From positions 1-40,594 of the forward strand of contig NZ_JACJQJ010000076.1 in NCBI RefSeq assembly GCF_014696615.1: a DNA stretch of 40,594 nt, written 5' to 3'. Positions 16,361-40,594 of the stretch are shown here, piece after piece. This DNA is from Nostoc linckia FACHB-104. Lineage in GTDB: Bacteria; Cyanobacteriota; Cyanobacteriia; Cyanobacteriales; Nostocaceae. Made by a program: the position numbers and the translations under genes. A model generated the notes under the pieces. The model was not told where the DNA came from. It saw only the letters and a program-made list of their open reading frames with translations, and did no database searches. Every line of letters starts with the position of its first letter. Position 1 is the first letter of the stretch.

Positions 16361-16416
16361 ATTATTGGATTGGAAATTAACTTCTATATTTTGCTGAAGT
16401 GAATATATTTATTACA

Positions 16417-16463
16417 TTGTCCATTAAATAATTGTTGTCCATTTTAAAGAATTATTGTCCATT
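16417..16463. repeat. Putative CAST left-end TnsB-binding repeats (3 x TTGTCCATT)
   Basis: Direct copies of TTGTCCATT at 16417-16425, 16435-16443 and 16455-16463, spaced 18 and 20 bp. Tn7-like ends carry several spaced TnsB sites, and the position directly upstream of tnsB fits the left end of a V-K element. The first copy should lie near the transposon tip. Confidence 0.65.
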
Positions 16464-16480
16464 TTCAATTTATAGTGCTT

Positions 16481-16526
16481 ATAGCTGAAACCTTTTCATA
16501 GCAAGGGTTTCAGCTATTTTGTTTTT
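16481..16526 (+). terminator. Intrinsic terminator within the transposon left end
   Basis: A perfect 12-bp stem (ATAGCTGAAACC at 16481-16492, GGTTTCAGCTAT at 16506-16517) is followed by TTTGTTTTT. It is oriented to stop plus-strand transcription entering the transposon just before tnsB. No plus-strand gene ends close by, so insulation of tnsB from outside read-through is a plausible role (inference). Confidence 0.75.
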
Positions 16527-16558
16527 AGATTATTCTTTTCCCATTTTTAAATCAAATG

Positions 16559-16599
16559 ATGTCATAAATCATATAAAATTTTAAAGTAAATAATGACAT
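16559..16599. promoter_or_regulatory. tnsB: Inverted ATGTCAT / ATGACAT pair upstream of tnsB
   Basis: ATGTCAT at 16559-16565 and ATGACAT at 16593-16599 flank a very AT-rich 27-bp stretch about 20 bp before the tnsB start, where its promoter should lie. It could be a regulatory or TnsB site. A GGAG at about 16607-16610 is the probable ribosome binding site. Confidence 0.35.
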
Positions 16600-16618
16600 A
16601 TTTTGTGGAGATGAGCTG

Positions 16619-16834
16619 ATGCCCAGGAAGCCCACGAGCGAAGCCTTTCCAGCGTTGGAGATTGAGGAAGCCGCAAATAAGGAAGAAGAGCAAACAAAGC
16701 ACCTACTAGTTAACGAAGATTCATCAGACTATCTCAACAAGGTCGATTTGATAGATGCTATCCGTCAAGCACCTAACAAAGCAGCTCGTAGGGATGCGTT
16801 CGCAGATGCAGCTAAAGCTTTGGGTAAAAGCGAA
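16619..16834 (+). pseudogene. tnsB: tnsB, 5' fragment (N-terminal domain)
   Basis: About 72 codons of the N-terminus of a Tn7-like TnsB (the DDE transposase that joins the element ends to the target). The segment PNKAARRDAFADAAKALGKS matches the beginning of the first helix-turn-helix of V-K TnsB proteins. The reading frame then runs into an IS4-family element and stops at 16843. The start follows a GGAG ribosome binding site at a normal distance. Only this piece and the 3' fragment after 18.24 kb remain. Roughly 100-150 residues, including most of the DNA-binding domains and the approach to the first catalytic Asp, are missing. Confidence 0.75.
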
Positions 16835-18240
16835 TGGCACTAAGAAAAGCGGAAAGCCTTATCAATTAAGCAGTTTGCAATTGTTTGCGTAACTTATGCC
16901 GGGGCTTGGTCAATCTGGGGTAAGCTTTGGGGCGGCGTTTGGTGACTCGTGGTTCACTGCGACCTGGGCGGTCGGGAACGGCCTTGTGAGCAATAACTTT
17001 TAGCAAAGTGCGATAAAGAAGGAGGCTTTTTTGAGAAGTTGCTGCTAATAATTTGGGAATAAAGTTAATTAAATGGTGGCGAGTACCTTGCAGTGATAAG
17101 CGTAATGGAGGAGTGGTGTAAGTAGTTCCAGCATCCCACATCAAACTACGAAGTAGATTGTAAGCCAGCAAAAAAACGTAAATTTCTTTGCGTACCATTG
17201 AGGGTGTGTTACATCGTAAAATATCCATACCCAAGGTAGTTTTTAGATGTCTTAAATCTAGTTCAACATCCCACCGTTTACCGTAAAGTCCAACAATATC
17301 CAGAGTAGGATAAGTGGCTTTATCTAAAAGAGTAGTAATTAAGCTGACTCGTTGAGTGCGAAAACCAGGAATAACAATGTAGTAGTAAATTTCTCTTACA
17401 GTTATGCTAGAAGGTAAAGCATCAAATTCATCCTTGCTCAAACCTTTTGGGCAACTTTTAGGTTTATACCAAGTAACTAGTTTGTCACAATCCCCAACAA
17501 TTTTTCCTTTTCGCATGGTGGTTGTGCGAGATTGATGCTTGCGAAATACCGCATCACAGTCAAGTTGTTTAATAGCAAACATATCAGCGTAAGCGCAAAA
17601 TGCTCTATCCCCTAAAAGCACATCATTTGGTTTGAGAAAACTGTACAACCTCCTTGCTAATTTAATATCATGCGTGTTCAAAACGTCTATGCACAAAGCA
17701 ATAGCGGCTCCTGTAGCTAAACTGAATATCACTCCAATTTTGGCAATTGGGAATCCACATCCTTCTTTTTGGGTACTAGCTTGAGGGTATTCTTTTTGGT
17801 TCTCTACAGTATCCGGCATGGAGACAGTCGAGCCATCTATCACCTTTACATTTCGACCACACCATAAATATTCTTCTGTAATTTTTTCTTCTAGACTTTG
17901 TGCAGAGAAATTAAAAAGTTTTTCTAATAACTTCTCTGGGAGTCTCGCCCTAGCTTGGCAGTAAGCACTCGTATCTGTTGAAGGGATTTCTACTTCTGAT
18001 TCTGCCAGATGTGCAATTATTTTACTTACAGCATTATGGCAAGTTTTATCCGTATCTAAAACCTGCGATAAAAACGCCCACAACGTTATAAATGGGTCAA
18101 ACAATCGCTTTTTATATTTAATATTTAGCTCAGAAATTGCTTGTTTTATTGCCGATTCTGGTATCAATTCTTTAAAAGGTAGCCCTAACCCTTGGCTAAA
18201 TTTATCCTTGAGGATTTGTACTCTTAGTGTCACAGTGGTG
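16835..18240 (-). mobile_element. IS4-family insertion sequence interrupting tnsB
   Basis: A single-ORF element. An imperfect terminal-repeat candidate is TGGCACTAAGA at 16835-16845 versus TGACACTAAGA (reverse complement) at 18222-18232. The second copy overlaps the transposase GTG start, so the element may be trimmed at that side or its true end may lie some tens of bases further right. No clean target duplication was found, consistent with a deletion next to the element. Confidence 0.6.
16866..18233 (-). CDS. IS4-family DDE transposase
   Basis: A 455-aa transposase, probably complete, from a GTG start. The DDE residues fit IS4: Asp in VKVIDGSTVSMPDT, Asp in VLLGDRAFCAYADM, and Glu within the family signature Y-2-R-3-E-6-K (YGKRWDVELDLRHLK). 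The Arg/Lys-rich C-terminus is usual for the group. It transcribes opposite to tnsB. No frameshift is visible, so it may be active even though the host transposon is not. The start codon lies at the very edge of the inferred element, so the exact N-terminus is uncertain. Confidence 0.88.
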   Translation of the reverse strand: MTLRVQILKDKFSQGLGLPFKELIPESAIKQAISELNIKYKKRLFDPFITLWAFLSQVLDTDKTCHNAVSKIIAHLAESEVEIPSTDTSAYCQARARLPEKLLEKLFNFSAQSLEEKITEEYLWCGRNVKVIDGSTVSMPDTVENQKEYPQASTQKEGCGFPIAKIGVIFSLATGAAIALCIDVLNTHDIKLARRLYSFLKPNDVLLGDRAFCAYADMFAIKQLDCDAVFRKHQSRTTTMRKGKIVGDCDKLVTWYKPKSCPKGLSKDEFDALPSSITVREIYYYIVIPGFRTQRVSLITTLLDKATYPTLDIVGLYGKRWDVELDLRHLKTTLGMDILRCNTPSMVRKEIYVFLLAYNLLRSLMWDAGTTYTTPPLRLSLQGTRHHLINFIPKLLAATSQKSLLLYRTLLKVIAHKAVPDRPGRSEPRVTKRRPKAYPRLTKPRHKLRKQLQTA

Positions 18241-18243
18241 TTT

Positions 18244-19596
18244 ATGATGTTGGCTTATTCGTCTCAAAAAAGTATTTCACGGACGAGTAAGCTTTTTCTA
18301 CCTTCAAAAACTTTTTGGGCAAACGTACATCATCTTCCTATCTGCGATGACCATACTAAATTAGATATTTTGTTAATAGACGAAGAAGATAAAAAAGTTA
18401 TTGGTCGTCCATATATCACATTGGTAATGGATAGCTATTCTGGGTGTGTGACAGGTTTTTATCTAGGTTTTGAACCTGCTGGCTCGCATGAAGTTGGTTT
18501 AGCGCTACGTCATTCAATTTTGCCAAAGCACTACGAAACCGAGTACGAGCTTCAAGAAACATGGCAGGTGTGCGGAATTCCAGAATATATAATGACAGAT
18601 CGTGCGAAGGAATTTAAATCGGCACATTTAAAACAAATTTCCCTACAATTAGGTTTTACGCGGCGGTTACGTGCTTTTCCTCAAGCAGGTGGTTTAATTG
18701 AATCAATATTTGACAAGATTAATAAAGAAATTTTGTCTTTATATGGTGGATATACTGGTTCAAGTGTAGAGGAACGTCCGCCAGAAGCAGAAAGGACTGC
18801 CTGTCTAACGCTTGATAAACTAGAGAAAATCTTAGTGAGATATTTTGTAGACCATTACAATCGTCATGATTATCCAAGGGTGAAAAATCAAAAACGTATT
18901 GAGCGATGGAAATCAAGGTTGCTGGAAGAACATGAAGTTCTCGATGAACGTGAACTAGATATTTGTTTAATGAAAGTTGCAATACGCAATGTAGAAAAAT
19001 ATGGTTCTGTCAACTTTCAGGGTTGGGTATACCAAGGCGACTGCTTGTTAAATTATGAAGGTAAGCAAGTTTCTTTAAGATATGACAAACGCAATATTAC
19101 AACTGTGCTTGCTTATACTCGCCCTATTAACAGTGAACCAGGAGAGTTTCTTGGTGTTATACAAGCTAGAGATTGTGAAAGAGAAAGGATGTCTCTGGCT
19201 GAATTAAATTATATCAAGAAAAAATTGCGCGATGAAGGTAAACAAGTTGATAATTCTTCTATTTTGAACGAGCGTTTGTCTACATTCGAGGATGTTGAAC
19301 AAAACCGAAAGGAGAGACGCAGACAACGCCAGAAAAAAGCCCAACAAAAACACGAGATTAAGTCAAATAAATCAAAACTAATCGAGTTATTTCCTGAAAA
19401 TGTAAACCCACAAGAAATAATAACATCACAAGAAAATTTAATATCTACTTTTGACGCAGATCCACCAAATATAGTAAATTCAATAGATAAGCAAGTTACA
19501 CAAAATAAACCTGATCCCAATCAAACAGCTAAAGCTAGACGACGACCTAGAGTAGGTGTGAAAGATTGGAACCAATTTATGAGGGATAATTGGTAA
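18244..19596 (+). pseudogene. tnsB: tnsB, 3' fragment (catalytic and C-terminal domains)
   Basis: An open frame of ~450 residues carries most of the TnsB core. The first catalytic Asp is in CDDHTKLDILLID, the second in IMTDRAKEFKS and the Glu in GGLIESIF. It continues with the Mu-type C-terminal beta-barrel region (LRYDKRNITTVLAY) and a basic, disordered TnsC-interaction tail ending DNW. Recognisable homology begins only near 18340; before that the sequence looks like IS-junction DNA. The helix-turn-helix domains are gone, so end recognition should be lost even though the catalytic triad survives. The stop codon is 5 bp before the tnsC ATG, indicating an original tnsB-tnsC-tniQ operon. Confidence 0.85.
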
Positions 19597-19601
19597 TTGT
19601 C

Positions 19602-20522
19602 ATGCCGGAGACAAACTTAGCCCATGCCAATGTAGAATTTCAGCAGCAGGTAGGTGCAAATTTACAACCTGCTGAGGAACTACGGCGATCGCTTGAAGCA
19701 CAAGCTGAGGTTGAAAGAATTGGTAAAGCTAACACTTACCTTCCCCTAGATCGTGACACAGAATTATTTGACTGGCTTGATGATCAGCGTGATGCAAAAC
19801 TTTGTGGTTATGTGACATCAGCTACAGGTTCTGGCTTATTAAAAGCTTGTCAATTGTACAGAACTCAGTACGTAAAGCGAAGAGGAACTTTGTTGGAAGT
19901 CCCAGCAACTGTAATCTACGCTGAAATAGAGCAGCATGGAGGTCCAACGGATTTGTACTGCTCTATTTTGGAAGAAATTGGTCATCCGCTTGCTCATGTT
20001 GGAACACTGCGAGATTTGCGATCGCGTGCATGGGGAACTATTAAGGGATATGGTGTCAAAATACTCATCATTGGTAATGCCGACTACTTAACGTTGGAAG
20101 CTTTTAACGAGCTAATTGATGTTTTTACAAAAATGCGAATTCCCGTTATCTTAGTCGGCACTTACTATCTAGGCGATAATATTCTTGAACGGAAAAGTCT
20201 CCCATACGTGCGCGTTCATGACTCGTTTTTAGAGTCATACGAGTTTCCTAATTTAAATGAGGAAGAGGTAATTGAGGTTGTAAACGATTGGGAAGAAAAA
20301 TTTTTACCAGAGAAGCGTCGATTAAATCTTACCCAAATGGAGAGTGTAGTTTCTTATTTGCGGCTAAAATCTGGAGGTTTGATTGAGCCTTTGTATGATT
20401 TACTTCGCAAGATTGCAATACTAAAAATAGATGAGCCACATTTTGAACTGAATCAATATAATTTGACGAAACGGTTTGGCAGACGTAAAGAACCAAAAGT
20501 TAAATTTAAAAGAAAAAGCTGA
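19602..20522 (+). CDS. tnsC: TnsC-like AAA+ protein with degenerate Walker motifs
   Basis: About 306 aa from the ATG at 19602 (the frame opens 4 codons earlier at a TTG overlapping the tnsB stop). By position and sequence it is the V-K TnsC, the AAA+ ATPase that forms filaments on target DNA and links Cas12k/TniQ to TnsB. The Walker A position reads TGSGLLKACQLY: the invariant Lys and the following Ser/Thr are both Leu. The Walker B position reads ILIIGNADYL: Gly-Asn where Asp-Glu is expected. The rest of the fold is well preserved and open to a basic C-terminus (RRKEPKVKFKRKS). ATP binding and hydrolysis should be abolished. This is either early decay of a dead transposon or a changed function. 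Confidence 0.85.
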   Translation: MPETNLAHANVEFQQQVGANLQPAEELRRSLEAQAEVERIGKANTYLPLDRDTELFDWLDDQRDAKLCGYVTSATGSGLLKACQLYRTQYVKRRGTLLEVPATVIYAEIEQHGGPTDLYCSILEEIGHPLAHVGTLRDLRSRAWGTIKGYGVKILIIGNADYLTLEAFNELIDVFTKMRIPVILVGTYYLGDNILERKSLPYVRVHDSFLESYEFPNLNEEEVIEVVNDWEEKFLPEKRRLNLTQMESVVSYLRLKSGGLIEPLYDLLRKIAILKIDEPHFELNQYNLTKRFGRRKEPKVKFKRKS

Positions 20523-20576
20523 AGGCTCTTATTTGCTTTGATTTCAAGTCTTTAGTAAAACGTAAACTATGGGTTC

Positions 20577-21089
20577 ATGGAGCCAGAAATCTTACAAAAT
20601 CCACCTTGGTATATCGAACCGAAGGAAGGAGAAAGTATCAGTCACTATTTTGGTCGATTTAGGCGACACGAAACTGTTTGCGTATCGTCGTCTGGAACTT
20701 TAAGTAAAGCCGCAGGTATTGGCCCAGTATTAGCAAGGTGGGAGAAATTTCGGTTTAATCCGTTTCCCAGTCAAAAGGAATTAGAAGCTATTGGTAAATT
20801 AATTAGCTTGGATGCAGACCGAATTGCTCGAATGCTTCCACCCAAGGGTGAAAAAATGAAACTGGAGCCAATTCGCTTGTGTGCTGCGTGTTATGCAGAG
20901 CAACCATATCATAGATTGGAGTGGCAGTTTCAATCAACAGTAGGGTGCAACCTCCACAAGTTACGTCTACTTTCAGAATGTCCCTTCTGCAAGGAGCGTT
21001 TTGCTATCCCAGCGTCGTGGGAACAGGGAGAATGTAACAAATGCCATGCACCTTTTAGAAGTATGAAAAAGCGGCAAAAAGCTTATTAA
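20577..21089 (+). CDS. tniQ: TniQ (short V-K type)
   Basis: A 170-aa protein, the short size usual for V-K CAST TniQ (ShCAST TniQ is ~167 aa). It starts with the family block LQNPPWYIEPKEGESISHYFGRFRR. Its C-terminal half carries paired zinc-ribbon motifs: CAACY, then CNLH, CPFC and CNKC. TniQ bridges the Cas12k-guide complex and TnsC at the target. All zinc ligands seem present, so it looks intact while its partners are broken. It lies 54 bp after tnsC on the same strand and is probably co-transcribed. The minus-strand caspase-STAND gene ends 92 bp further on, marking the start of the cargo. Confidence 0.9.
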   Translation: MEPEILQNPPWYIEPKEGESISHYFGRFRRHETVCVSSSGTLSKAAGIGPVLARWEKFRFNPFPSQKELEAIGKLISLDADRIARMLPPKGEKMKLEPIRLCAACYAEQPYHRLEWQFQSTVGCNLHKLRLLSECPFCKERFAIPASWEQGECNKCHAPFRSMKKRQKAY

Positions 21090-21181
21090 ACAATATTTCC
21101 GGTTAAGTTATAATGACAGTGAGTTGAAGAAGAACTGAATTGAGATCGCCTAGCATTAGCCTTGTTTGCTTGAGGCGAACT

Positions 21182-24100
21182 TCAGTTTAATAGACGTTGC
21201 TTCTCTTCTTCAGTGAAAGGATTTTTACCAGCACGCAGAGCATTAACCCAACTTTGCATTTGTGCTTTGTCTTCTTTATTATCAGTCGATTTGATATATG
21301 CCTCAAAGTCTTCAATTGCCCCTTGAGTATTGCCAGTCAGCGCCCTACCAATACCCCGAATTGGACGAATGTTTATATTTTCAGGCTCAAGTGCCACCGC
21401 TTTATCACAGGCAAACATGACATCTGCGGCATATCCCCTCAAACTGCCATCCCAGCAGAGTTTATTCCAAGAATCAGCAGATATTTTCAAGTTGGGGTCG
21501 AATTTTTGTGCATCTGCGTAGGCAGCAAGAGCTTCCTTGACTTTACCATCTTTAACGAGCTTTTCTCCCTGAGTAACCAAAGCAAGGGCAGCTAACTGTC
21601 CGACTTCTATTGTGCTAGGGATAGCTACGTTAGAATCCAATTTTCGGGCTTGATTAAACTTAGCTTCCGCAGTTTTGATATCACCATCTGCCTTTGCTAT
21701 GGCTTGACCTTGATTAACTAGAAATTGAGCTTTTTCGCTGTTGCTCCATTTGGCAAAGTCGAGACAGGTTTGCGCTGCGGCTTTTGCATCGTCAGTTTTA
21801 GCTTCTAGAAGTGTAGGATGCTCGTGTAAATTATTGCACCCCACTTTTAGCCAATCTTGCCAATTACCACCAGCCCACAACCGTAGCGTGTTGTCATCAC
21901 TGCCACTGACAATATACTGACCATCGCGACTGAACGCCAGCGCCCTGACACGTTCTGTATGACCGTTGAGGGTGTGGAGCAACTTGCCTTTTGTATCCCA
22001 CATCCGTAGCGTGTTGTCATCACTGCCACTGACAATGTACTGACCATCGGGACTAAACGCTAGCACCGTGACATAACTTGTATGACCGTTGAGGGTGTGG
22101 AGCAAGTTGCCTTTTGTATCCCACAACCGTAGCGTCTTGTCATAACTGCTACTGACAATATACTGACCATCGGGACTGAACGCCAGTGCTGTGACAGGTG
22201 CTGTATGACCGTTGAGGGTGTGGAGCAAGTTGCCGTTTGTATCCCACATCCGTAGCGTATTGTCTACACTGCCACTGACAATATACTGACCATCGGGACT
22301 GAACGCCAGTGCTGTGACAGGTGCTGTATGACCCTTGAGGGTGTGGAGCAACTTGCCTTTTGTATCCCACATCCGTAGCATATTGTCATAACTGCTACTT
22401 ACAATATACTGACCATCGGGACTGAACGCCAGCGCCGTGACAGTAGCTGTATGACCCTTGAGGGTGTGGAGCAAGTTGCCGTTTGTATCCCACATCCGTA
22501 GCGTATAGTCATCACTGCCACTGACAATGTACTGACCATCGGGACTGAACGCCAGCGCCCTGACAGTACCAGTATGACCCTTGAGGGTGTGGAGCAACTT
22601 GCCTTTTGTATCCCACATCCGTAGCGTCTTGTCACTACTGCCACTGACAATGTAATGACCATCGGGACTGAACGCCAGCGCATTGACACCGCCTGTATGA
22701 TCCTTGAGGGTGTGGAGCAAGTTGCCTTTTGTATCCCATATCCGTAGCGTCTTGTCATAACTGCCACTAACAATATACTGACCATCGCGACTGAACGCCA
22801 GCGCCCTGACACGTTCTGTATGACCCTTGAGGGTGTGGAGCAACTTGCCTTTTGTATCCCACATCCGTAGCGTCTTGTCATTACTGTCATCACTGCCACT
22901 GACAATGTACTGACCATCGGGACTGAACGCCAGATCCGTGACACGTCCTGTATGACCGGAAAAAATATTGCGCTCACGCACAGCTTCTATTGCTTCTAAT
23001 AAACTAGATTGAACTTCACTTAAAACTTCCCCCAGTTGTGACTTACTTTCACCAGTTGCCCCAATTGCTGAAATTAATTGCTCTACATTTGTCTGTATTG
23101 GCAGTAAATATTTGATATTTGTACCTTTTTCTCGCAGATTGGCTATAGTTGCTTGTTTGCGAGACTCTAATCCAAAAATTGTAGAAGCCACTGCACCTAT
23201 AGCTACCACGCCTACAAAAGCAGCAACAGCCCCAAATCTAACCCATTTACTTGTGTTACGTTGCTGAATACTTTTCTGCACAAATTCCGATGCTAAATGC
23301 GACAGCAAACCGAGATCCCCATACTCTTGTAAGTAATTCTCTGCCTCTGCCAATTTTGACCCGGTAAACAGATAATCTTTGGACTTGCTTTTACTTTCCC
23401 ACTCCTCTGATGCTGCCTCAATCTTGCGCTCAACGCGGATAGCGGCGCGGTTTTCACTCACCCAAGCACGCAGTCTTGGCCAATGGCGAATCAATGCTTC
23501 ATGAGTTACATCCACCACTGTCACCGTCTTTTGACTCTCTCCCCGTGCTTGCAGTTCCGATGTCACCACTAATCTGGCATCTGTCAACTTCATTAGCACT
23601 TGTTCCACCACTTCTGCCGACTGCTGGGAGTTGACTAAATCTGTTTTAAACACCTGTCTGCGGGTGTCTTCGGTTCCTTCTCCCAACTGAGTTAACTCGA
23701 TGAATATCCGTTTAGCAGTCAGTTGTTCTGTGGAGTCGAGAGCATCATAAACTTCATCAGCCCGTTTTTGTAGCGTGCCTTTAACTCCACCAAGTCTGCT
23801 ATATTCTGCCAGAGTTAAGCGATTCACCTCTCGCTTCCGCCACAATTCCGTTAGGGTATATTGCAACAAAGGTAAACTACCAGGGCCTTCCACATCGGCT
23901 AACATTTGTTCTACTAGTTCCCGTTGCACTTCTAACCCTACTTGATAGGCTGGTTGGGTAATGGCTTCTGTCAACTCCTTTTTATTCATTGGGGTGACAG
24001 TAATCAGATTCTCTTGAATTTTCTGTGCTAATCCGGCATATTCTTGTTCGGCACATTTACCAAAAAAATCTGCCCGCATCGTCATTACCACCGTCAACAG

Positions 24101-25606: not shown

Positions 25607-25673
25607 AAATTAATTTAAGTATTTAAGCTAGGCTAGTTAATCATGTAACCAAGAAATCCTAGTTATTTTCCTT

Positions 25674-26593: not shown

Positions 26594-28057
26594 ATGACTG
26601 ACCTCATTTATCCCACTATTGACCTCTTTCTCTTTGACTTGAAATATAGTTTAGGGGATACTCCAGAAGAGATTAAGCAAAATCAACAATTTTATTACAA
26701 TAAAATTCCTGAATACATTCGCCCATTATTGTTAGAAAATGGGCAAGATTTACAAGGTGAATATGTTCATCTTCTCCAAGATGTATACGCACAGACAAAA
26801 CATCATAATGAACAATATGAAGGCTATTTCTATCCGGTGCTACTCGGTGATAGTTATGGCTTACTTGTAGAGTGTGCATTCAAAAATAAAACTCATGCTC
26901 AACCTGCTAAAATATTTGTCGATATCAAAGCTGAAATTGAGCGCATATTAAAGAGTCAAACAGTTACTATTGGGCAAACCTGGATGCTTTCTGGCTGGCT
27001 ACCTCCTGCTCAAACTAAAAGCTCCGAAGAGATTGCTCAAGCTTGTTATCAGGCATTAATGCCCGGTTTAGATTGGGAAGGAGATTTACAAGGTCAAGGA
27101 CACTTTCTGGGAGCAAATATTTTTGAACTCACTCAAAATAATCAGCATTTTATTATAGTAATATATCCCGATGAAGCTACTTCAAACCAATCTGGTAAAT
27201 TTTATTCTGACTGGATACGTTTATTTTATTATCGGCATAAAATAGTTTGGGCTTATAGTCAAAGTCGTTTATTAAAACATTCTCTCCAAACTTATTTTAC
27301 TAAAATTAAAGTCGGAAGTGATGCTATTGAGCAAGCTAGAAATAAGGGAGGTGAGTTAAATACATTGCATAAAACATTAGTTGATGTGCAAAATACACTC
27401 AATGAATATACAAGAGAATTAACTATACTTGATTTTCAAGGTGGTACGATTGATATTAATTTAAGTAATTATGAAAAACGTCTAGGGAGAATTAAACAAA
27501 AGTCTCAAAAAATCCAATCAAATCAAGAAACAGAAGTTAAGTTTTTAACAGAGTTTAGTAAATTAGTTAAAGATAAATATCGCCTACAGATAACTAAAGA
27601 CTCAGAAAACCTGGAGAGAGGTTTAAAATTACTATCTGATACTATTAATGCAGTTAGTAGTCGAGTTGAAGTAGAAAAAGCTGAACGCGATCGCAATTTT
27701 CAAGAATTCGTTAGCCTTCTCGCTGTAGGCTGGACTTTTGGCTCTTTTGTTGCCGCTTTACCAGGATTGGGTGAAAAGAACGATAACCCTGTCAGATCTT
27801 TCCTGATTAATTCTTTCAATCTACAACAAACTATAAAAGACCAAAAGACAACAACAGAAGTAAAGACAGTTACACCGCAACCAAGTACAACAGCAGGAAC
27901 AACAAAGCAAAAAGTGATAACAGTTACACAGCAGGAAGCAAACCAAGAACCTTGGTGGCTAGTCCCAGCTACGAAGGGAATATACACCCTCAGCGGATTT
28001 GTCATTGCTATATTAGTAGTTTTGCTTTGGCGGCGTTTATGGAGACGATACAGTTAA
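26594..28057 (+). CDS. Hypothetical protein with coiled coil and C-terminal membrane segment
   Basis: A 487-aa protein of unrecognised family. The N-terminal ~240 residues form a soluble mixed alpha/beta region rich in aromatic residues (no known motif; contains KIFVDIKAEIERIL and WMLSGWLPPA). A long helical, probably coiled-coil region follows (about 245-375). A hydrophobic stretch at about 376-392 (LLAVGWTFGSFVAALPGL) may be membrane-associated. A Thr/Gln linker leads to a strong C-terminal membrane helix (about 462-480) ending in a basic tail (WRRLWRRYS). It is co-directional with the 159-aa gene and divergent from the caspase-STAND gene, which also has a membrane segment. It may be a membrane effector or target of that protease (inference). 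Confidence 0.6.
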   Translation: MTDLIYPTIDLFLFDLKYSLGDTPEEIKQNQQFYYNKIPEYIRPLLLENGQDLQGEYVHLLQDVYAQTKHHNEQYEGYFYPVLLGDSYGLLVECAFKNKTHAQPAKIFVDIKAEIERILKSQTVTIGQTWMLSGWLPPAQTKSSEEIAQACYQALMPGLDWEGDLQGQGHFLGANIFELTQNNQHFIIVIYPDEATSNQSGKFYSDWIRLFYYRHKIVWAYSQSRLLKHSLQTYFTKIKVGSDAIEQARNKGGELNTLHKTLVDVQNTLNEYTRELTILDFQGGTIDINLSNYEKRLGRIKQKSQKIQSNQETEVKFLTEFSKLVKDKYRLQITKDSENLERGLKLLSDTINAVSSRVEVEKAERDRNFQEFVSLLAVGWTFGSFVAALPGLGEKNDNPVRSFLINSFNLQQTIKDQKTTTEVKTVTPQPSTTAGTTKQKVITVTQQEANQEPWWLVPATKGIYTLSGFVIAILVVLLWRRLWRRYS

Positions 28058-29050: not shown

Positions 29051-29095
29051 GATGGATAGATGAAATTATTAACTCTGCTCCCAGGATTCCAAAAG

Positions 29096-29125: not shown

Positions 29126-29326
29126 CTATAGGGAAAGTATTGTTATTACTAGTATATATAAGTAGTAACTGATAATGGTGTTTGCGATCGCTCAAATTAT
29201 TACTCTTTGTATCTCAGCTTTTATAAAAATTCCTGTAATTCTTTCAATGATGAGTGTAATGACGGCAAGTATAACTGAAGTGCGATCGCCTGCACCTTGT
29301 CAATGTAATCTGGCTAAAAGCCGAAC

Positions 29327-30031
29327 TCAGTAACTTCCCAGGGGTGAGCGGTTCAATTCATCCTTATAAAATTTCCAATTGGGGAGAAATTTATTCATCA
29401 AAGCCACGAAGCGATCGCCATGATGACGTTCCAACAAATGTACCATCTCGTGAACTACAACGTATTCTAGGCAGTACTTGTCTTTTTTGGCTAGTTCCAG
29501 GTTGAGCCAGATGCGTTTGGCTTGGATGTTGCAAGTACCCCATTTGGTTTTCATCAGTTTTACCCCCCAGTCCTCAACCTGAACTCCTATATTCTGTTGC
29601 CATTTGGCAATTAATGAGGGAATATCTTGTTTTAACTGCTGTCGATACCAGGACATCATCACTTGTTGGCGTTGCGCTTCATCACTTCCTGGCTTGACAT
29701 AAAGGTCAATATATGTATTATTTCTAATTTCTACTTTGGGAGTTCCCTGACAATAGATAACATTTAGTAAATAGCGTTTACCTTGGAAGTAATGGCTTTC
29801 ACCAGATACAAATTCTCTTGGTGACTGGCGTTCTTGTGTTTCAAAATTAGCTTGATGCTTTTTGATCCAGGCTAGTTTGGAGATGGCGAATAAACGCACA
29901 GCTTCGTCATCCAGGTGTAAGGGTGTGGCGATACGTACTCGACCATCAGGGGGATATACTGCCAAGTGTAGGTTTTTAATATCTTTTCTGGCAACGTCTA
30001 TGACGAGTTCACCAACTGTAATTTGATGCAT
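29327..30031 (-). CDS. YgjP-like zinc metallopeptidase (DUF45/M48-related)
   Basis: A 234-aa protein. The C-terminal half has the gluzincin site HEMVHLLERHHGDRF: HExxH plus a third His, as in YgjP/SprT-like (WLM) peptidases. The TKWGTCN...RIWLNLELA block upstream of it is the conserved family signature. It is the last gene of the restriction-modification operon, starting 1 bp after the hsdR stop. Genes of this family are often found next to type I restriction systems, but their role there is not established; protein turnover of a subunit is one idea. No signal peptide is present, so it should be cytoplasmic. Confidence 0.85.
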   Translation of the reverse strand: MHQITVGELVIDVARKDIKNLHLAVYPPDGRVRIATPLHLDDEAVRLFAISKLAWIKKHQANFETQERQSPREFVSGESHYFQGKRYLLNVIYCQGTPKVEIRNNTYIDLYVKPGSDEAQRQQVMMSWYRQQLKQDIPSLIAKWQQNIGVQVEDWGVKLMKTKWGTCNIQAKRIWLNLELAKKDKYCLEYVVVHEMVHLLERHHGDRFVALMNKFLPNWKFYKDELNRSPLGSY

Positions 30032-30032
30032 C

Positions 30033-33000
30033 CTAATACTCGCTTTGGCTTTTGACTATTTCAAAAATGCGTTCTACATCTTCTAGGGAATCTAGATTTT
30101 GTTTAATGGCATTTTTTACTTCGCGTTCTTTGATTTTGTTTCCCCGCCATCCATCTTTTTTGGTTTTGCGAATCGCTTCATCTATCGCTAGAGCTAATAC
30201 TTCGTCTTGATTAAGGTTGTCGTATAAAGCCTGTTTAGCAGCAGAGTTCAATGATTGAGGATACTCTGAGGAACTGTTGGGTTGAGCAACTTGTTTACTT
30301 AACTCAACAATTTTCTGCAAGTAAGCTTGATATTCTTGGGATGCTGTTTTTCTGGCTTGAATCAATTCGTCCAGCAATGTGGACATTTTCTCAAAATATT
30401 TCGGGTTGGTTGGTTGCTTGTCAATGATAACTTTGCGTAAGTTGTTTTCAATGGTTTCTGCTACTGCTGTTTTGTTCTGCTTGATGCCTTGGGGTAATGC
30501 GTTAACAGCATCAGCACCCCTTTTGACTATCAACTCAACCAGTGTCATGTCGTCAAAGGTAGCAATAGTTTCGCTTTCTTCTGCACCAATGTAGTTATCT
30601 ATTAAGTGGCGCATAGCGGGTTCATAGGCTTTTAAATCAATATAATCTCCACTGGCAAGTTTTACCTCAGCACGTACCTGTTCGTAATGCTTAACTTCTT
30701 GTTTAATAGTGTCGATTTCTGCTGTGCTGTACCCAGCTTGTACCATGTCATTAGAAAGGTTGGCATAGGCTCGAACTAAAGCGGATGTGTATTTATACAG
30801 GGCAACACGCTTTTGCTGGTTGTCTTGAACGCTGTCTGGTTTGTCATTATCCCCGCAGAAATAGCGGATATAGGCAGGAGTATCTTGAGGTGGCTCTACA
30901 AGTTCGCAAAGGGCTTTAATAGCTTCTCTAGTCTCTTCTAGGCGTTCTCTGCCTTTTTCTAATCTGTCACTCAATAAGCCATCAACGTCGTCTACGTCAT
31001 AATCTTCAAAAGCTTCTGAGGTATAGTCCTTAACTGATTTTTCTAAGCTTTTAAATAGGTCTTTGTAGTCGATAATATAGCCATATTCTTTATCTTCCCC
31101 ATCTAAGCGATTGACACGACAAACTGCTTGAAACAGTCCATGATCACGCATGGTTTTATCAATGTAGAGATAGGTAGCAGGAGGAGCATCAAAGCCTGTT
31201 AGAAGTTTGTCAACTACTATCAGTAGCTTCATTTGGGCAGGTGATTTGATAAATTTCTCTTTAACTTCCTCCTCAAACTTCTCTGGACTTTTCCCATTCA
31301 GCATTTTTTTATAAATTTCGTATTGCTGGAGCTTTTGAGTGCGTTCATCGTTTCCGGTGCTTTCGCCTTTAATGCTTTTCTCTGAGGCATCATAAGAAGT
31401 GATAATGGCGCATTTAGTAAAGTCTGCTGCTTGAAATAACTCATAATATTTACAAGCTTCGTAAATGCTACCTGCTACGAGAATGGCGTTACCCCGTCCA
31501 CTTTGTAGTCTGTCTTTGGTTTCAAAATCTAGGATAATATCGCCGACAATTTTACTCAGGCGTGATTTAGAACTGAGGACTCTTTGCATAGTTCCCCAGC
31601 GTTGCTTAAGTAGGGTTTTCGCTTGTTCAGTTAAGCCTCTGGTTTTGGCTTCAAACCATTGGTCAATTTTGGTTTGGGAGGTAACATTTTGTTCTACTTT
31701 ACGAGCTTCGTAGCGTAAATCTAGAACAACTTTATCTGTCACAGCTTCGTCAAATTTGTATGTGTGAATGTACTCCCCAAATATTTCTAGGCTATTCCGT
31801 TCGTCTTTTTTGAGTATGGGTGTACCAGTAAAGCCAATGAACAAGGCATGAGGCAAAATTTCCTTCATGGCTTTGTGCAATTTACCTGTTTGGGAGTGGG
31901 TGCGATGACACTCATCAACAAAGACATAAATATCGCCTTTGACTTGGAAGTTCTGGGGTAAACTGCTCTTGAGTTGGGCTATGTAGTTGTCGTAACCACG
32001 TTGTTCTGCATTACTGTCTTTTCTGCCAAATTTATGGATTAAGGAGCAAAGTAACCAAGGGGTAGTATTATTCAGTTGGGTAATTAAGTCTTGACCACTT
32101 TTTGTGCGATAGATGTTTTCGTTAACACCTAAAAATACCCCTTCAATTTGCTCATCTAGTTCTTCCCTATCTGTCATAATTAAGACACGAGCATTAGGGT
32201 TATATTCCCGAATCCATTTGGTAAGCCAAACCATAGTTAAGCTTTTACCACTGCCTTGGGTATGCCAGATAATGCCCCCTTCCTTACGGGAAAGATAAAT
32301 TTGGGCTGCTTTGACACCAAAATACTGATTATGTCGGCAGAGTTTTTTCACCCCACAGTCAAAGACAACAAAATTGTGGATAACTTCGAGAAAGCGGGTT
32401 TTTTCGCAGAGTTGAAGTAGATGTCTATCTAAACGATTCTCGATGTCGCTGTAGGTGTCTTCTTTCCAGGTGAGGTAATATTGTTCTGGAGTTTCGATGG
32501 TTCCATAGCGGAGTCCTTCGGTGTCGTTACCTGCCATGACAAACTGCATGGTATGGAAGAAGGACTTAATAAATATGGATTTTTGGTTATCGAGGTTTTG
32601 GCGGATACCTTCGGAGACGGAGACGGTGCTGCGTTTAAGTTCCAGAACACCAAGGGCGATGCCATTGATGTATATAACTATATCTGGGCGTTTGGTATTT
32701 TCGCCTTTAACGGTGACTTCTTCTGCGATCGCAAAATCATTTTCTAGAGGTTCTTCCCAGTCGATCAGCCAAACGGTTTGGGTGTTATCGCCAACTTCTT
32801 CTTTGACATTAACCCCATAGCGCAGCAAGCTATAAACTTGTTTGTTGATGTCATAAAGGCTTTTACTTTGGTCGCCTGCGACTTTGTTGAGTTCATACAA
32901 GGCTTTGGTGATCAGGCTGTTGCTGTAGCCTTGTTTGTCGCGGAGGAAGGCGGTGAGGATTTCCGTTTCGATGTTGCTGTTGTTTGGTCGGTCGTGCCAA

Positions 33001-33089
33001 TCACCCAGATAGCGATAGTCTAATTGTTGCTGGAATAGTTGCACAATGCGGTTTTGGGTTAGGCGTTCGCGTTGTCCGACCTGGCTCAT
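30033..33089 (-). CDS. hsdR: Type I restriction enzyme, R subunit (endonuclease/translocase)
   Basis: A 1018-aa protein, the normal HsdR size. The PD-ExK nuclease site is at 135-152 (RPDIVIYINGIALGVLELKRS region; Asp136, Glu150, Lys152). The helicase motor follows: Walker A HTQGSGKS at 276-283, DECHRTH near 392, FTGTPI, and a second RecA domain with DKLLTGFDAPPATYLYIDK and the QAVCRVNRLDG arginine motif. The ~300-residue helical C-terminus probably contacts the methylase core. HsdR translocates DNA and cuts when bound to HsdM2-HsdS at unmethylated sites. It looks intact. It needs HsdS for recognition, and that gene is broken here. Confidence 0.95.
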   Translation of the reverse strand: MSQVGQRERLTQNRIVQLFQQQLDYRYLGDWHDRPNNSNIETEILTAFLRDKQGYSNSLITKALYELNKVAGDQSKSLYDINKQVYSLLRYGVNVKEEVGDNTQTVWLIDWEEPLENDFAIAEEVTVKGENTKRPDIVIYINGIALGVLELKRSTVSVSEGIRQNLDNQKSIFIKSFFHTMQFVMAGNDTEGLRYGTIETPEQYYLTWKEDTYSDIENRLDRHLLQLCEKTRFLEVIHNFVVFDCGVKKLCRHNQYFGVKAAQIYLSRKEGGIIWHTQGSGKSLTMVWLTKWIREYNPNARVLIMTDREELDEQIEGVFLGVNENIYRTKSGQDLITQLNNTTPWLLCSLIHKFGRKDSNAEQRGYDNYIAQLKSSLPQNFQVKGDIYVFVDECHRTHSQTGKLHKAMKEILPHALFIGFTGTPILKKDERNSLEIFGEYIHTYKFDEAVTDKVVLDLRYEARKVEQNVTSQTKIDQWFEAKTRGLTEQAKTLLKQRWGTMQRVLSSKSRLSKIVGDIILDFETKDRLQSGRGNAILVAGSIYEACKYYELFQAADFTKCAIITSYDASEKSIKGESTGNDERTQKLQQYEIYKKMLNGKSPEKFEEEVKEKFIKSPAQMKLLIVVDKLLTGFDAPPATYLYIDKTMRDHGLFQAVCRVNRLDGEDKEYGYIIDYKDLFKSLEKSVKDYTSEAFEDYDVDDVDGLLSDRLEKGRERLEETREAIKALCELVEPPQDTPAYIRYFCGDNDKPDSVQDNQQKRVALYKYTSALVRAYANLSNDMVQAGYSTAEIDTIKQEVKHYEQVRAEVKLASGDYIDLKAYEPAMRHLIDNYIGAEESETIATFDDMTLVELIVKRGADAVNALPQGIKQNKTAVAETIENNLRKVIIDKQPTNPKYFEKMSTLLDELIQARKTASQEYQAYLQKIVELSKQVAQPNSSSEYPQSLNSAAKQALYDNLNQDEVLALAIDEAIRKTKKDGWRGNKIKEREVKNAIKQNLDSLEDVERIFEIVKSQSEY

Positions 33090-33192
33090 AGCAACCCTCT
33101 CACTGTGATAATCACGGATTTACTCAGCTTTAAATATGACACTGTTAATCAAACTATGTCATCTCTATTTGTGTCATCCGTGAATTTTCTGT

Positions 33193-33597
33193 CTAGCTTA
33201 ATGTTTGTAACCAGGAAGTACCTGTGAGATTGGTATCGACTGTGGCTAAGGTCAACTGGTGGTGAATTGCTGTAGCGGCAATAAAGCGATCGCCTGGGTC
33301 TTGATGCGGTAACTGAATCTGACGGCTTAAAATAGCGATGTGGCGGTTAAGTGGAGCTTCACGAATTTCCAGGGTATTTAAGGCTAAATCAACCCATGCA
33401 ACTGGATTAGGCTGTAAAGATATTCGTCCTTTTTCTGCTAAAAGTAGAGTTTCCCAGATACTAATTGGACTGAGCCAAAGTTCGGTTGTTGCTGCTGCAA
33501 TAGTGGTTTGAAGTTGAGGAGATAGGCGTTCGTTACCAAGTAAATACCAAAGCCAGATGTGGGTATCAAGTAAGAGCTTCACTGGAGTGCTTCCCAT
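33193..33597 (-). CDS. PIN-domain toxin (VapC-like)
   Basis: A 134-aa PIN-domain protein. The N-terminal strand KLLLDTHIWLWYL carries the first acidic residue, SISIWE the Glu, and HQDPGDRFIAATA the central Asp pair; TVDTNL ends the site. These residues coordinate metal for RNA cleavage in VapC-type toxins. The gene overlaps the upstream Phd/YefM-type antitoxin by 19 bp, the usual TA arrangement. The pair sits between hsdS and hsdR, so it may stabilise the restriction operon or the whole transposon cargo (inference). Confidence 0.88.
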   Translation of the reverse strand: MGSTPVKLLLDTHIWLWYLLGNERLSPQLQTTIAAATTELWLSPISIWETLLLAEKGRISLQPNPVAWVDLALNTLEIREAPLNRHIAILSRQIQLPHQDPGDRFIAATAIHHQLTLATVDTNLTGTSWLQTLS

Positions 33598-33815
33598 GTG
33601 GTAGCAGGGATTACTGGAGCAATTACGTCTCCCAATATTTCGCCGCTACCCTTCATTGCTCCAAATGCTGGGCGCTGGGGTTGAGGGGTGGCGGGATAGA
33701 TGATGACTAAGGGTTCTCCGTCATGGGTGACGGTTACGGGTGTTTTAGTGCGTTGTATTTCTGCAAATATTTGTTGCAGCGTTTCAGGTAGTTCGCTGGT
33801 AGCAATGTGTTCCAT
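33579..33815 (-). CDS. Phd/YefM-type antitoxin
   Basis: A 78-aa protein. It has the Phd/YefM N-terminal fold pattern: TSELPETLQQIFAEIQRTKTPVTVTHDGEPLVIIYP. A C-terminal tail (GEILGDVIAPVIPATTWEAL) should wrap the PIN toxin. It also presumably represses its own promoter. It overlaps the toxin gene by 19 bp and lies 65 bp downstream of the hsdS stop. Confidence 0.85.
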   Translation of the reverse strand: MEHIATSELPETLQQIFAEIQRTKTPVTVTHDGEPLVIIYPATPQPQRPAFGAMKGSGEILGDVIAPVIPATTWEALQ

Positions 33816-33880
33816 AGTAAGGTTTAGCTTTTGTTCTTGCTTCTATTCTAGAGATTGGCGGTTGAAAACCCTAACGTTGC

Positions 33881-37675: not shown

Positions 37676-37872
37676 TTTGTGTAGCCTTTAAAAGACCTCC
37701 CCTGATCAACTTTGCCAGACGTTCTCAAGCCCGTCTGACACTTTGCCTTGAAGTTTTGACATCGTGCAAAGAACCAATAACATACCACGCGCAAGGACTT
37801 AGCTCATGTAGTGGCTGAGGATATATCGTATACCAGGAATGCTCAAATTGGCGTAGATACAACAGCTACATA

Positions 37873-38037
37873 TTATTGCGGCGGATTTTGCTTCTCTCGC
37901 TCCTCAACAGCCTTACTGACAATCCGCACAACAAGATTACTGATGGGACGGTCTTCTTCCTGCGCCCATCTCACCAAAGCCTCATGGATATCTTTGGGGA
38001 AATATATCGAAGTTTGTACGCGATCGCTTTGGCTCAT
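37873..38037 (-). CDS. Arc-type ribbon-helix-helix regulator divergent from cas12k
   Basis: A 54-aa protein (start 38037, stop codon at 37873-37875). The beta strand SDRVQTSIYFPKDIHEAL and two helices (RWAQEEDRPISNLVVRIVSKAVEER) make an Arc-like ribbon-helix-helix. V-K CASTs are known to carry a small regulator next to and divergent from cas12k, either MerR-type CvkR or Arc-like, which represses cas12k and effector RNA genes. Position, orientation and the repeated palindromes in the shared intergenic region fit that role. The repressor appears intact although its target gene is broken. Confidence 0.8.
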   Translation of the reverse strand: MSQSDRVQTSIYFPKDIHEALVRWAQEEDRPISNLVVRIVSKAVEEREKQNPPQ

Positions 38038-38424
38038 TAATCTTTAAAACATTTATCGCCAGTTCATCATAACCCCACTACCTTGTTACAAGGCTAAATA
38101 ATGTTTAACAATGTTCAGCAATGTTTCATGATAAACTTAAAACATTGCTGAACATTAAATTAAAGTTCAACAATGTTAAATCTCTATATCTCGAAAGTCC
38201 AAGCTATGCCTAACTTAAGTAATATTTGCTACTTAGCTTGTATGGATTTTGGGCAACTTCCCTCATCTGCAAAGTTGCCAGCAGATTTTGCAGATATTGC
38301 CACATCACCGAAATTTTTAGATTGCGATCGCGTCAAGTGCGATCGTGCTGACAAAGGCTAATAAGCAATCAAGTTCTAACTACACGAGCTAAGAAATTAT
38401 TTATTTTATGGAGAGGTTCACACT
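38038..38424. promoter_or_regulatory. Regulator-cas12k intergenic region
   Basis: 387 bp between divergent genes. The left half holds the AACAATGTT-type operator array (38104-38177). The right half holds a small hairpin, GGCAACTT (38252-38259) with AAGTTGCC (38272-38279), overlapped by an alternative pairing CTGCAAA/TTTGCAG ending near 38293. A 62-codon frame at 38173-38361 has no recognisable product. A GGAGAGG ribosome binding site precedes the cas12k ATG. Confidence 0.55.
38104..38177. promoter_or_regulatory. Putative operator array for the Arc-type repressor
   Basis: AATGTTCAGCAATGTTT at 38110-38126 is exactly inverted at 38140-38156 with a 13-nt spacer. AACAATGTT occurs at 38107-38115 and again at 38169-38177. 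The dense TGTT/AACA half-sites around the divergent start sites look like cooperative ribbon-helix-helix binding sites. Confidence 0.65.
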
Positions 38425-40391
38425 ATGAGCCGCGATCGCCAGAAGAAATCCACGAGTCCAATCCATAGAACTATACGATGCCATCTCCATGCTAGTGAAG
38501 ATGTACTGCGTAAAGTATGGGAAGAAATGACCCAAAAAAATACTCCTCTGATTGTTCAATTATTGAAGAGTGTAAGTGAGCAACCAGAATTTGAAGCCAA
38601 TCAAGAGAAGGGAACAATAAGTAAAAAAGAAATCACAAAATTACGCAAAGCTCTGACAAACGATTCTGCTCTTCAGCAACAGTCAGGTCGTCTTGGCACA
38701 TCAGCAGACTCTTTGGTAACAGAGGTTTATACATCATGGCTTAAATTATCTCAAAAAATCAAAAAGCACAAAGAAGGTAAAGAATACTTTCTAAATAATA
38801 TTCTCAAAAGTGATGTTGAACTTGTAGAAGAAAGCAATTGTGATTTACAGACAATCCGTTGTAAAGCACAAGATATACTGAGCCAGCCAAAAGAATTTCT
38901 AGAACAGATTATTAATAATGATGCCGTTCTAAATCAAACAAAGTCAGCGAGGAAAAAAGTTAAAAACAGTAGTAATGAAATTAACGCCTCCAAACAAAGT
39001 AAAAATTCGGATTACCAAGAAAATGTAGATAAAAATATCCCAGAAACATTGACTGAAATTTTATATAAAATCCATAAAATAACTCAGGATATTCTAACGC
39101 GGTGTGCCGTCGTCTACTTGATAAAAAACCATAATAAAGTTAGTGATATAGAGGAGGATATCAAAAACCTTAAAAAGCGTCGCACTGAAAAACAAGTTCA
39201 GATTAAACGTCTAGAAGAACAAATACAGAATAAGAAATTACCTAATGGTAGAGATATAACAGGAGAAAGATATAATCAAGCATTTGATAATTTAATCAAT
39301 CAAGTACCTCAAGACAATGAAGAGTACGCAGAATGGATAGCTAGCTTATTAAATAAAGTCTCACATTTACCGTATCCTATCGATTATTTGTATAGCGATT
39401 TAACTTGGTATAAAAATGAATAAGGAAAAATTATTGTTTACTTTAATGGCTGGGCTAAATTTCACTTTCAAATTTGTTGTAATAAACGCCAACTTCATTT
39501 CTTTAAACGCTTTCTAGAAGACCATAAAGCTCTTAAAGAAAGTGAGAAAGGAGAAACAAAACTTTCAGGTAGTTTGGTTACACTACGTTCTGTACAGTTG
39601 TTGTGGCAAAAAGGTGAAGGCGCTGGTGAGCCGTGGAAAGTTAATAAATTAGCTTTGCATTGTACCTATGATGCTCGTTTATTGACAGCAGAGGGTACTG
39701 AAGAAGTAAGACAAGAAAAGACTGATACTACACAAAAAAAAGTTACTAAACCAGAAAGTAATAAAAATCTCGATAGCGATGAACAAAAAAGCCTGAATAG
39801 AAATATATCTTCATTGTCTCGGCTTAATAATTCATTTGCTCGTCCCAGTAAGCCAATTTATCGAGGTCAGTCTAACATAATTGTTGGTGTTAGTTTCCAT
39901 CCTGTTGAATTAGCAACACTTGTTGTAGTTGATATAATTACTAAAGAAAAAATCATCTGTAAAACAGTCAAACAGTTACTAGGTGATGCTTTTTCTCTCT
40001 TAAGTCGTAGACGACGGCAACAAGTGCATTTTCGTAAAGAAAGAGAAAAAGCTCAGAAAAAAGACTCTCCTTGTAATATGGGCGAATCGCAACTAGAGAA
40101 TACGTTGATAAATTGCTAGCCAAAAGAATAGTAGAAGTCGCTAAGGAATATCAGGCTAGCTGTATTGTTTTACCAACATTAAAAGACACGAAGGAAATCC
40201 GTACCAGTGTAATTCAAGCAAAAGCGGAAGCTAAATTCCCTGGTGATGTAAATGCCCAAAAATTATATGTGAAGGAGTATAATCGCCAGATACACAATTG
40301 GAGCTACAGCAGACTTCAAGAATCCATAAAGTCAAAAGCTGCCGAGTTGAAAATTATCCCTCTTCTGTCACTTTCCGAGTATTCTGAATAA
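38425..40391 (+). pseudogene. cas12k: cas12k, inactivated (nonsense, frameshift, 3' truncation)
   Basis: Cas12k is the nuclease-dead, guide-RNA-binding targeting protein of V-K CASTs (~640 aa). Homology runs from codon 1 (MSRDRQKKST...HRTIRCHLHASED) through LNTPLI-like NTPLIVQLL, the RuvC region RGQSNIIVGVSFHP and the arginine-rich QLLGDAFSLLSRRRRQQ. A TAA at 39421-39423 interrupts it in frame between WYKNE and GKIIVYFNGW. One base is missing between 40098 and 40099, after GESQLE; the next frame resumes with YVDKLLAKRIVEVAK. Homology ends near SIKSKAAEL (about 40350), about 35-40 residues short of the family C-terminus, where an IS701-like element begins. Start and ribosome binding site (GGAGAGG) are intact. 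Confidence 0.92.
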
Positions 40392-40594
40392 AAGGATGAA
40401 AAGAAAAAACTCTGGAAGGTAAGCAGGGCAATGGATGTAGAATTACAAATCCTGAAACATTTAGCAAGAGATCCTCATCCAACAGTTGGCATCATAGATG
40501 AATATTGTGCAGAGTATAAAGACTTATTTAAAGAAGTAAGAAATTATGAGTGCTTCAAATATTTACACTTGGGAATCATCTCAACGATAAAAAG
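40360..40594 (+). mobile_element. IS701-like insertion sequence, left part; truncates cas12k
   Basis: The sequence after about 40355 is no longer cas12k-like and leads into a transposase start 75 bp further on. The exact inverted repeat and target duplication cannot be set because the other end is outside the window. Confidence 0.5.
40431..40594 (+). CDS. IS701-family transposase, N-terminal part (runs off the window)
   Basis: 54 codons, open to the window edge, starting MDVELQILKHLARDP. The following segment, with IIDEYCAEYKDLFKEVR and YECFKYLHLGIIS, matches my recollection of the N-terminus of cyanobacterial IS701-like DDE transposases. A GGAAGG ribosome binding site lies about 10 nt upstream. 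The catalytic domain is outside the window, so activity cannot be judged. Family assignment rests only on this N-terminal similarity. Confidence 0.6.
   Translation, partial: MDVELQILKHLARDPHPTVGIIDEYCAEYKDLFKEVRNYECFKYLHLGIISTIK

Follow-up and report, generated by a model that had tools for sequence, protein, structure and literature searches.

A decayed type V-K CRISPR-associated transposon of Nostoc linckia FACHB-104 and its TnsC lineage without canonical ATPase residues

In the type V-K CRISPR (clustered regularly interspaced short palindromic repeats)-associated transposon (CAST) of Scytonema hofmannii, ShCAST, the regulator ShTnsC assembles with ATP into filaments, TnsB trims these by way of ATP hydrolysis, and this hydrolysis secures targeting: with a non-hydrolysable ATP analogue, filament disassembly is blocked and insertion becomes untargeted (passages of PMC9876797). 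According to a passage of a review (PMC11406308, Annu Rev Biochem 2024), the catalytic glutamate is missing from some V-K TnsC proteins and a typical Walker A motif from some, and one survey, in a passage of PMC10293859, dropped TnsC sequences with gaps at the Walker positions of its alignment. Here we describe an element of this family on a contig of Nostoc linckia FACHB-104 (NZ_JACJQJ010000076.1; 40,594 nucleotides, analysed over its full length and called the window), which is the whole of contig C156 in a 9.39-Mb, 181-contig assembly (coded G000). The 3' piece of its tnsB matches ShTnsB (E 6.4e-85), its tnsC product ShTnsC (E 5.3e-23), and the first piece of its cas12k ShCas12k (E 1.3e-39), matches that mark the element as a type V-K CAST by ancestry. 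We put at about 85% the probability that it is a recently immobilised copy from a lineage of such transposons whose TnsC lacks the canonical ATPase residues (Walker-less TnsC below), and we are highly confident of the family and of the decay as such.

The V-K CAST layout proposed in an earlier note on this DNA is borne out by the matches to ShTnsB, ShTnsC, ShCas12k, and PF06527: TnsB, TnsC, and TniQ of the V-K type are encoded in a row, and cas12k lies downstream of the cargo as a broken gene. The chromosomal flank (1-16417) is for the most part common to G015, a genome of the same genus, with 93-96% identity in the alignment. The shared flank stops at 16417, and the element starts at 16418 and runs off the contig, position 40594 being the end of the contig and not of the element.

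The Walker-less TnsC lineage

The earlier note had taken the active-site substitutions of the window tnsC as damage, a view that its relatives contradict. Among relatives at 81-94% identity, the Walker A sequence is SATGSGLLK and that of Walker B is GN[A/S]D, in open frames, in 19 of 19 rows (the window and 18 others, which come from 17 genomes). The count was made over open reading frames (ORFs) of more than 200 amino acids (aa) with both regions, so that shorter ORFs and interrupted copies do not enter it; a truncated TnsC row of G117 is without the Walker A region, and its Walker B sequence is TNDD. The window protein found a match in 111 of the 217 genomes of the family that were searched, most of the matches listed being distant ones at ~26-35% identity, and the altered Walker residues are also present in more distant type V-K CASTs. 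A second search, with the TnsC of a two-gene element described below as query against 388 genomes of the order, gave 14 at E <=1e-30. For trees, 20 Walker-less and 6 canonical TnsC rows were picked from the family and order searches and the PDB, a selection and not a census, without short or interrupted copies and without G370, which has a deletion of the Walker A region. All 20 Walker-less rows are without the residues corresponding to ShTnsC Lys66, Asp144, Glu145, and Arg189, which are missing from 0, 0, 1, and 1 of the 6 canonical rows, respectively; in the 20, Lys66 is replaced by Leu, Asp144 by Gly or Asn, Glu145 by Asn, Lys, or Gln, and Arg189 by Ser or Thr. These rows form one clade in the TnsC tree (100/99, and 100/100 after removal of the Walker columns), and the same clade appears in the TnsB tree, at 100/99 without a far outgroup and 75/86 with it. 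Walker-less members with Cas12k matches also occur in family groups f8 and f15, and G494 corresponds to plasmid NC_014534.1 of Gloeothece verrucosa PCC 7822.

The tnsC gene is under purifying selection. Its ratio of nonsynonymous to synonymous substitution rates (dN/dS, Nei-Gojobori method) has a median of 0.117 (range 0.074-0.155) over 36 pairs without the window and lies at 0.084-0.148 for window pairs; the values for other genes are 0.098 for TniQ (36 pairs), 0.170 for the C-terminal part of TnsB (28), and 0.367 and 0.227 for two parts of Cas12k (21 each). An AlphaFold2 model of the window TnsC (pLDDT, the model's own confidence score, 84.3) has an AAA+ fold whose best PDB match is ShTnsC (7m99; TM, or template modelling, score 0.85 by target length), and the signature of an ATP-dependent ShTnsC-type protein, Walker A Lys, Walker B Asp-Glu, and trans Arg, is absent from its sequence. 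Were tnsC decaying along with its neighbours, these substitutions would be lesions of the window copy, and the substituted residues are indeed ones that ShCAST needs (a passage of PMC11406308). We give this explanation almost no weight, since the residues are absent in 18 of 18 close relatives and in all 20 tree rows, the frame is open, the window-pair dN/dS falls inside the range of other pairs, and a canonical TnsC was looked for in the sister genome G015 and none was found. We read the window tnsC as an intact member of a conserved Walker-less lineage and not as a damaged gene.

A search with a canonical TnsC at E 0.001 found no other V-K TnsC in G015 or G071 and finds two in G208. Rescue in trans by a canonical TnsC was considered and rejected, this search having found none in G000, G015, or G071. 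Two further arrangements involve these genes: in G209 (C1, 15391-19123 in the merged coordinates of L074 and L075), a tnsB-tnsC-tniQ set with the canonical Walker A Lys follows directly after a cas12k, cut at codon 67, of a Walker-less element, and in G131 (C107, L063), the last 45 codons of tnsC are repeated ~1.2 kb downstream with small reverse ORFs between.

Complete relatives and a two-gene derivative

All four genes are open, that is, in one frame per gene over at least 605 of 640 TnsB and at least 661 of 671 Cas12k residues, on 7 of 21 element contigs (G085, G208, G160, G131, G041, G082, and G122), and tRNA-Ala adjoins the right end in all seven according to ARAGORN. Matching 5-bp flanks are present in four of the eight contigs with both ends: G208 and G041 (TATGG), G122 (CATGG), and the decayed G212 (AGTGG). 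The guide was checked in two complete relatives, G085 and G015, in which the trans-activating CRISPR RNA (tracrRNA) region was assigned by position and likeness. In G085 there are six CRISPR repeats, and the guide matches the element's own tRNA-Ala but for one base. G015 encodes TnsB, Walker-less TnsC, and TniQ on one contig and an open Cas12k of 678 codons on another, and its right side holds the tracrRNA region, 22 CRISPR repeats, an insertion sequence (IS)-like insert in a further repeat, the guide, and a right end by tRNA-Ala(GGC); AGTGG stands on both sides of the element, a 5-bp duplication spread over the two contigs, which probably belong to one element. Elements in series can be seen at such sites, with a further right end five bases left of the left end at L050 17832-17838 (G015) and L056 5832-5838 (G208), and with successive left ends on C209 of G041, near 22202 and 23361.

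A much smaller element carries the same kind of TnsC, which nests among V-K CAST TnsC in the tree. G071 holds three copies (99.95-100%) of a 3,975-bp element that consists of TnsB, Walker-less TnsC, and a 197-aa reverse ORF, and G211 (Trichormus variabilis 0441) holds two identical copies of 4,005 bp. No TniQ or Cas12k match was found in the 18-kb stretches around these two-gene elements, and no Cas12k was detected in the G071 and G109 genomes. Target duplications flank one of the three copies in G071 and both in G211. The 4,005 bp of the G211 element recur with 100% identity on plasmids A and C of ATCC 29413, where the TnsC (WP_011316413.1) carries the annotation 'ATP-binding protein'; on plasmid A, TCAAC stands on each side of the element, and the corresponding empty site is found in NZ_CP047243.1 of strain 0441, where the flanks match at 100% identity with a five-base overlap (142446-142974 and 142970-143536). 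Judged from these filled and empty sites and duplications, the 4-kb two-gene element is mobile. Six short non-autonomous copies occur in G211 and G109, with both ends in five and duplications in two. Copies of 487 bp with both two-gene ends lie in G211 at C1 3994647-3995133, C1 1672001-1672487, and C2 215902-216388, two of the three with duplications. By TnsC the two-gene elements group with G461, and by TnsB with G279/G356/G482; a TnsB grouping with G461 like that of TnsC was rejected (approximately unbiased test, p-AU 7e-10), and tnsB and tnsC therefore seem to have been exchanged.

The Walker-less CASTs could also be a dying lineage that is moved in trans by canonical CASTs of the same cells, as might be suggested by the decay of several copies and by genomes such as G208 that also hold a canonical TnsC. 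But G015 and G071 have no other detected V-K TnsC, tnsC and tniQ are under purifying selection, and G071, a genome in which no Cas12k was detected, holds several copies of the two-gene element, so that we find this possibility quite improbable.

Damage, cargo, and age of the window copy

Damage to tnsB by an IS insertion and a deletion, as claimed earlier, is confirmed by comparison with G015. Window positions 16418-16831 align to G015 17838-18251 and 18349-21115 to G015 18693-21459, and from this alignment gap, a 1,517-bp insert with an IS4-family transposase stands for 441 bp of tnsB, leaving the gene without ~147 codons. Related IS elements occur on cyanobacterial plasmids, and a megablast search of the tnsB-tniQ stretch against plasmids gave matches over the IS only. 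The nonsense codon, frameshift, and IS truncation that the earlier note had described in cas12k are likewise all seen, as a stop after ~codon 325, a frameshift near codon 550, and the loss of the 3' end after ~codon 637 of 671 (G085 numbering). The contig does end in an IS, which could hint that the damage is an artefact of a draft assembly; this is very hard to credit, since element sequence flanks the IS4 insertion on either side within the contig, and the nonsense codon and the frameshift are well away from the repeat at the contig end.

What the earlier note had hoped to find beyond 40594 was recovered in part. When the stretch of G085 that reaches from the 3' end of cas12k to tRNA-Ala was used to search the same genome, the right 378 bp turned up on another contig, C108, where the right end adjoins tRNA-Ala(GGC) and a gene that we take to be hisF-like. 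Homing guides of type V-K CASTs have targets with a GTN protospacer-adjacent motif, and the guide on C108 matches tRNA-Ala (GGC) at 17 of 17 bases with GTA before the match, the right end lying 54 bp from the match start. ARAGORN found no tRNA in the window, the tRNA-Ala sitting on C108 instead, and a search of the window against Rfam at gathering scores gave no match. The tracrRNA/CRISPR stretch of the element, searched for with that of G085, was not found in the 9.39-Mb assembly, and no target duplication was seen, the two ends lying on two contigs with differing flanks (TACAT at the window left end and AATGG at the C108 right end). With ~147 codons gone from tnsB, three breaks in cas12k, and no tracrRNA/CRISPR stretch found, the window copy is unable to move itself, and since neither tnsB nor cas12k is intact, it is not a functional V-K CAST.

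Another intact tnsB-tnsC-cas12k set, which the earlier note had named as a finding that would refute its reading, was not found in the genome: our searches of it found one TnsC only, one V-K-like TnsB, and two distant TnsB (28-32%), and its second cas12k is internally deleted. That gene belongs to a second V-K CAST remnant on C36 (11025-12598, L085) and C177 (1-1400, L098), which comprises a MerR-like gene (by look), the cas12k without an internal stretch, a Cas12k C-terminal piece (C177), and, besides a tracrRNA-like match, five CRISPR repeats with a different sequence.

Features of the window element are collected in Table 1. Both tniQ and the repressor gene are open, as had been claimed: tniQ is intact, and the candidate repressor is an open reverse ORF upstream of cas12k whose place and size fit the Arc regulators of V-K CASTs (as described in a passage of PMC9938897). 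The claim that most of the cargo remained open stands for hsdM, hsdR, the caspase/nSTAND1/WD40 protein, and others, and fails for hsdS, which is split, compared with 427 aa for the like-placed gene of G085. A palindrome of 73 bp, MITE- or REP-like (miniature inverted-repeat transposable element; repetitive extragenic palindrome), lies between the hsdS pieces at 34789-34861, and in the chromosomal flank there are short repeats at 9696-10020 (translation TQNSELR/TQNSALS).

Table 1. Coordinates of the window element, with copies of the two-gene element elsewhere
Feature	Position	Strand	Basis or comparison
Left transposon end: terminal TGTCCATTAAATAATTG and two further repeats	16418..16474	+	sequence; 16418-16465 is an inverted match to the G085 right end; flank TACAT
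tnsB 5' remnant, ~71 native codons	16619..16843	+	90% identity to G015 over 71 aa
IS4-family insertion, transposase 16866-18233 (455 aa), replacing 441 bp of tnsB	16832..18348	-	PF01609; PF13006 just below cut-off; alignment gap against G015
tnsB 3' remnant, catalytic core and C-terminal part, open frame	18349..19596	+	ShTnsB match; 92% to G015
tnsC, intact; Walker-less, with Leu in place of the Walker A Lys, Gly-Asn in place of the Walker B Asp-Glu, and Ser in place of the trans Arg	19590..20522	+	
tniQ, intact	20577..21089	+	PF06527; 93% to G015; dN/dS 0.068 to G015
Cargo: caspase-like/nSTAND1/WD40 protein, 1474 aa	21182..25606	-	
Cargo: 487-aa protein	26594..28057	+	no Pfam or PADLOC match
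Cargo: YgjP-like metallopeptidase (29327-30031) and type I restriction subunit hsdR (30033-33089)	29327..33089	-	like genes in G085
Cargo: PIN-domain protein and small neighbour, presumably VapBC-like	33193..33815	-	PF01850 for the first; neighbour without Pfam match
Cargo: hsdS, split into 131 + 270 aa	33881..35276	-	PADLOC specificity-subunit matches, both pieces
Cargo: type I methyltransferase hsdM, 802 aa	35267..37675	-	
Open 54-aa ORF, ribbon-helix-helix-like by look, Arc-type repressor candidate	37873..38037	-	translation
cas12k remnant: stop 39421-39423, frameshift between 40077 and 40119, 3' end lost	38425..40356	+	
IS fragment truncating cas12k; contig ends inside	40355..40594	.	99-100% at ten other assembly places
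Two-gene element copies (outside the window)	L081 6140-10114; L082 4839-8843; NC_007410.1 132928-136932; NC_007412.1 294918-298922		

The earlier note had further proposed that mobility was lost and cargo kept. The first part holds, the copy being immobile; retention is weakened by the broken hsdS and by lesions that look young. With G131 as outgroup, nonsynonymous/synonymous changes on the window branch number 3/7 in cas12k part a, 3/1 in cas12k part b, 4/19 in the tnsB part, 3/16 in tnsC, and 5/10 in tniQ, against 7/5, 3/2, 13/21, 7/12, and 2/13 on the G015 branch; with G041 as outgroup the counts are, in the same order, 3/8, 3/2, 6/18, 9/18, and 4/14 on the window branch and 5/6, 3/2, 14/18, 5/13, and 4/14 on the G015 branch. 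In these small counts, amino-acid changes are not consistently more frequent on the window branch than on the G015 branch, as they would be under relaxed selection on the window copy. From such sequence comparisons the lesions, and with them the loss of mobility, look young. If the loss is young, the open tniQ, tnsC, and cargo frames need no selection after it and are no evidence of retention.

The ATPase question and comparison with known systems

Several observations weigh against reading the window element as a recently immobilised copy from a Walker-less lineage. Fourteen of the 21 element contigs are without all four genes open, some because they end too early and some by decay (G212, G213, and G183). 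The flanks differ in four of the eight contigs with both ends (G131, which has all four genes open, G140, G047, and G117), elements stack at tRNA-Ala sites, where a matching flank may predate the last insertion, and G085, with four intact genes, lacks the outer left repeats. The right end of the window element lies on another contig, so a gap in the assembly might account for part of the absent array. Warnings of long branches that meet near the split between Walker-less and canonical rows accompany the TnsC trees. Last, the remnant G370, with its Walker A region deleted, reads VDDAH at Walker B and so keeps the first Asp, and a lysine two positions past the lost one (K85 in the window) is kept in 20 of 20 Walker-less tree rows and could belong to an unusual phosphate-binding loop.

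This lysine leads to a rival account, in which Walker-less TnsC still binds ATP through such a loop and cycles slowly, making these elements ATP-dependent CASTs with a deviant P-loop. The retained fold, the Walker B Asp of G370, and the glycine that precedes the lost lysine and is still present in 16 of 20 rows are all consistent with it, whereas none of the 20 has the Walker B Asp, the Walker B Glu, or the trans Arg, and in the predicted two-gene TnsC the helix begins after two loop residues compared with five in the window TnsC model. We consider this account unlikely, though the most serious of the alternatives, and somewhat favour nucleotide independence of the Walker-less TnsC.

With a nucleotide-independent TnsC, a guide near the right end of the complete relatives would direct Cas12k and TniQ to the tRNA-Ala gene, where TnsC would bind DNA and recruit TnsB in the manner of ShCAST, though with no assembly or turnover driven by ATP; a TnsC of this kind may, in the two-gene elements, let TnsB insert at unselected sites. 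The fuller evolutionary account, in which the lineage made its AAA+ regulator a nucleotide-independent scaffold and kept RNA-guided homing to tRNA-Ala, while a CRISPR-free, TniQ-free two-gene transposon arose within it and recently moved in a cyanobacterium kept as a laboratory strain, is one to which we would give even odds.

The window copy is decayed and ordinary as such, and its tnsC opens a more interesting lineage. Members of that lineage, which is without ATPase residues, come from at least three family groups within one cyanobacterial order, and guides, tRNA-Ala sites, and target duplications are still found among them. With it, whether target choice needs ATP can be tested directly, and the two-gene Trichormus element offers a 4-kb natural minimal system for the same test. 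If the fuller evolutionary account is true, ATP hydrolysis by TnsC would be dispensable in nature for transposition and for RNA-guided targeting. The lineage is also a warning that dead Walker motifs in a CAST do not by themselves show decay. No description of the Walker-less lineage or of its two-gene derivative was found among the matches listed in the open-licence literature; the passage of PMC11406308 that mentions atypical TnsC proteins itself gives no lineage, selection, or mobility evidence and no CRISPR-free derivative.

Among known systems, ShCAST is like G085 and G015 in layout, with tnsB-tnsC-tniQ on the left and cas12k, a tracrRNA region, and CRISPR repeats on the right. It differs in that the Walker-less TnsC has no Walker A Lys, Walker B Asp/Glu, or trans Arg, and from the window copy also in that the latter is broken in tnsB and cas12k. 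The 4-kb Trichormus element, a transposase with an AAA+ regulator, resembles IS21 (IstA/IstB) and phage Mu (MuA/MuB). However, the IS21 regulator is described as nucleotide-controlled (a passage of PMC11208146) and MuB has ATP- and ADP-bound structures among the PDB matches, whereas the Trichormus TnsC is Walker-less.

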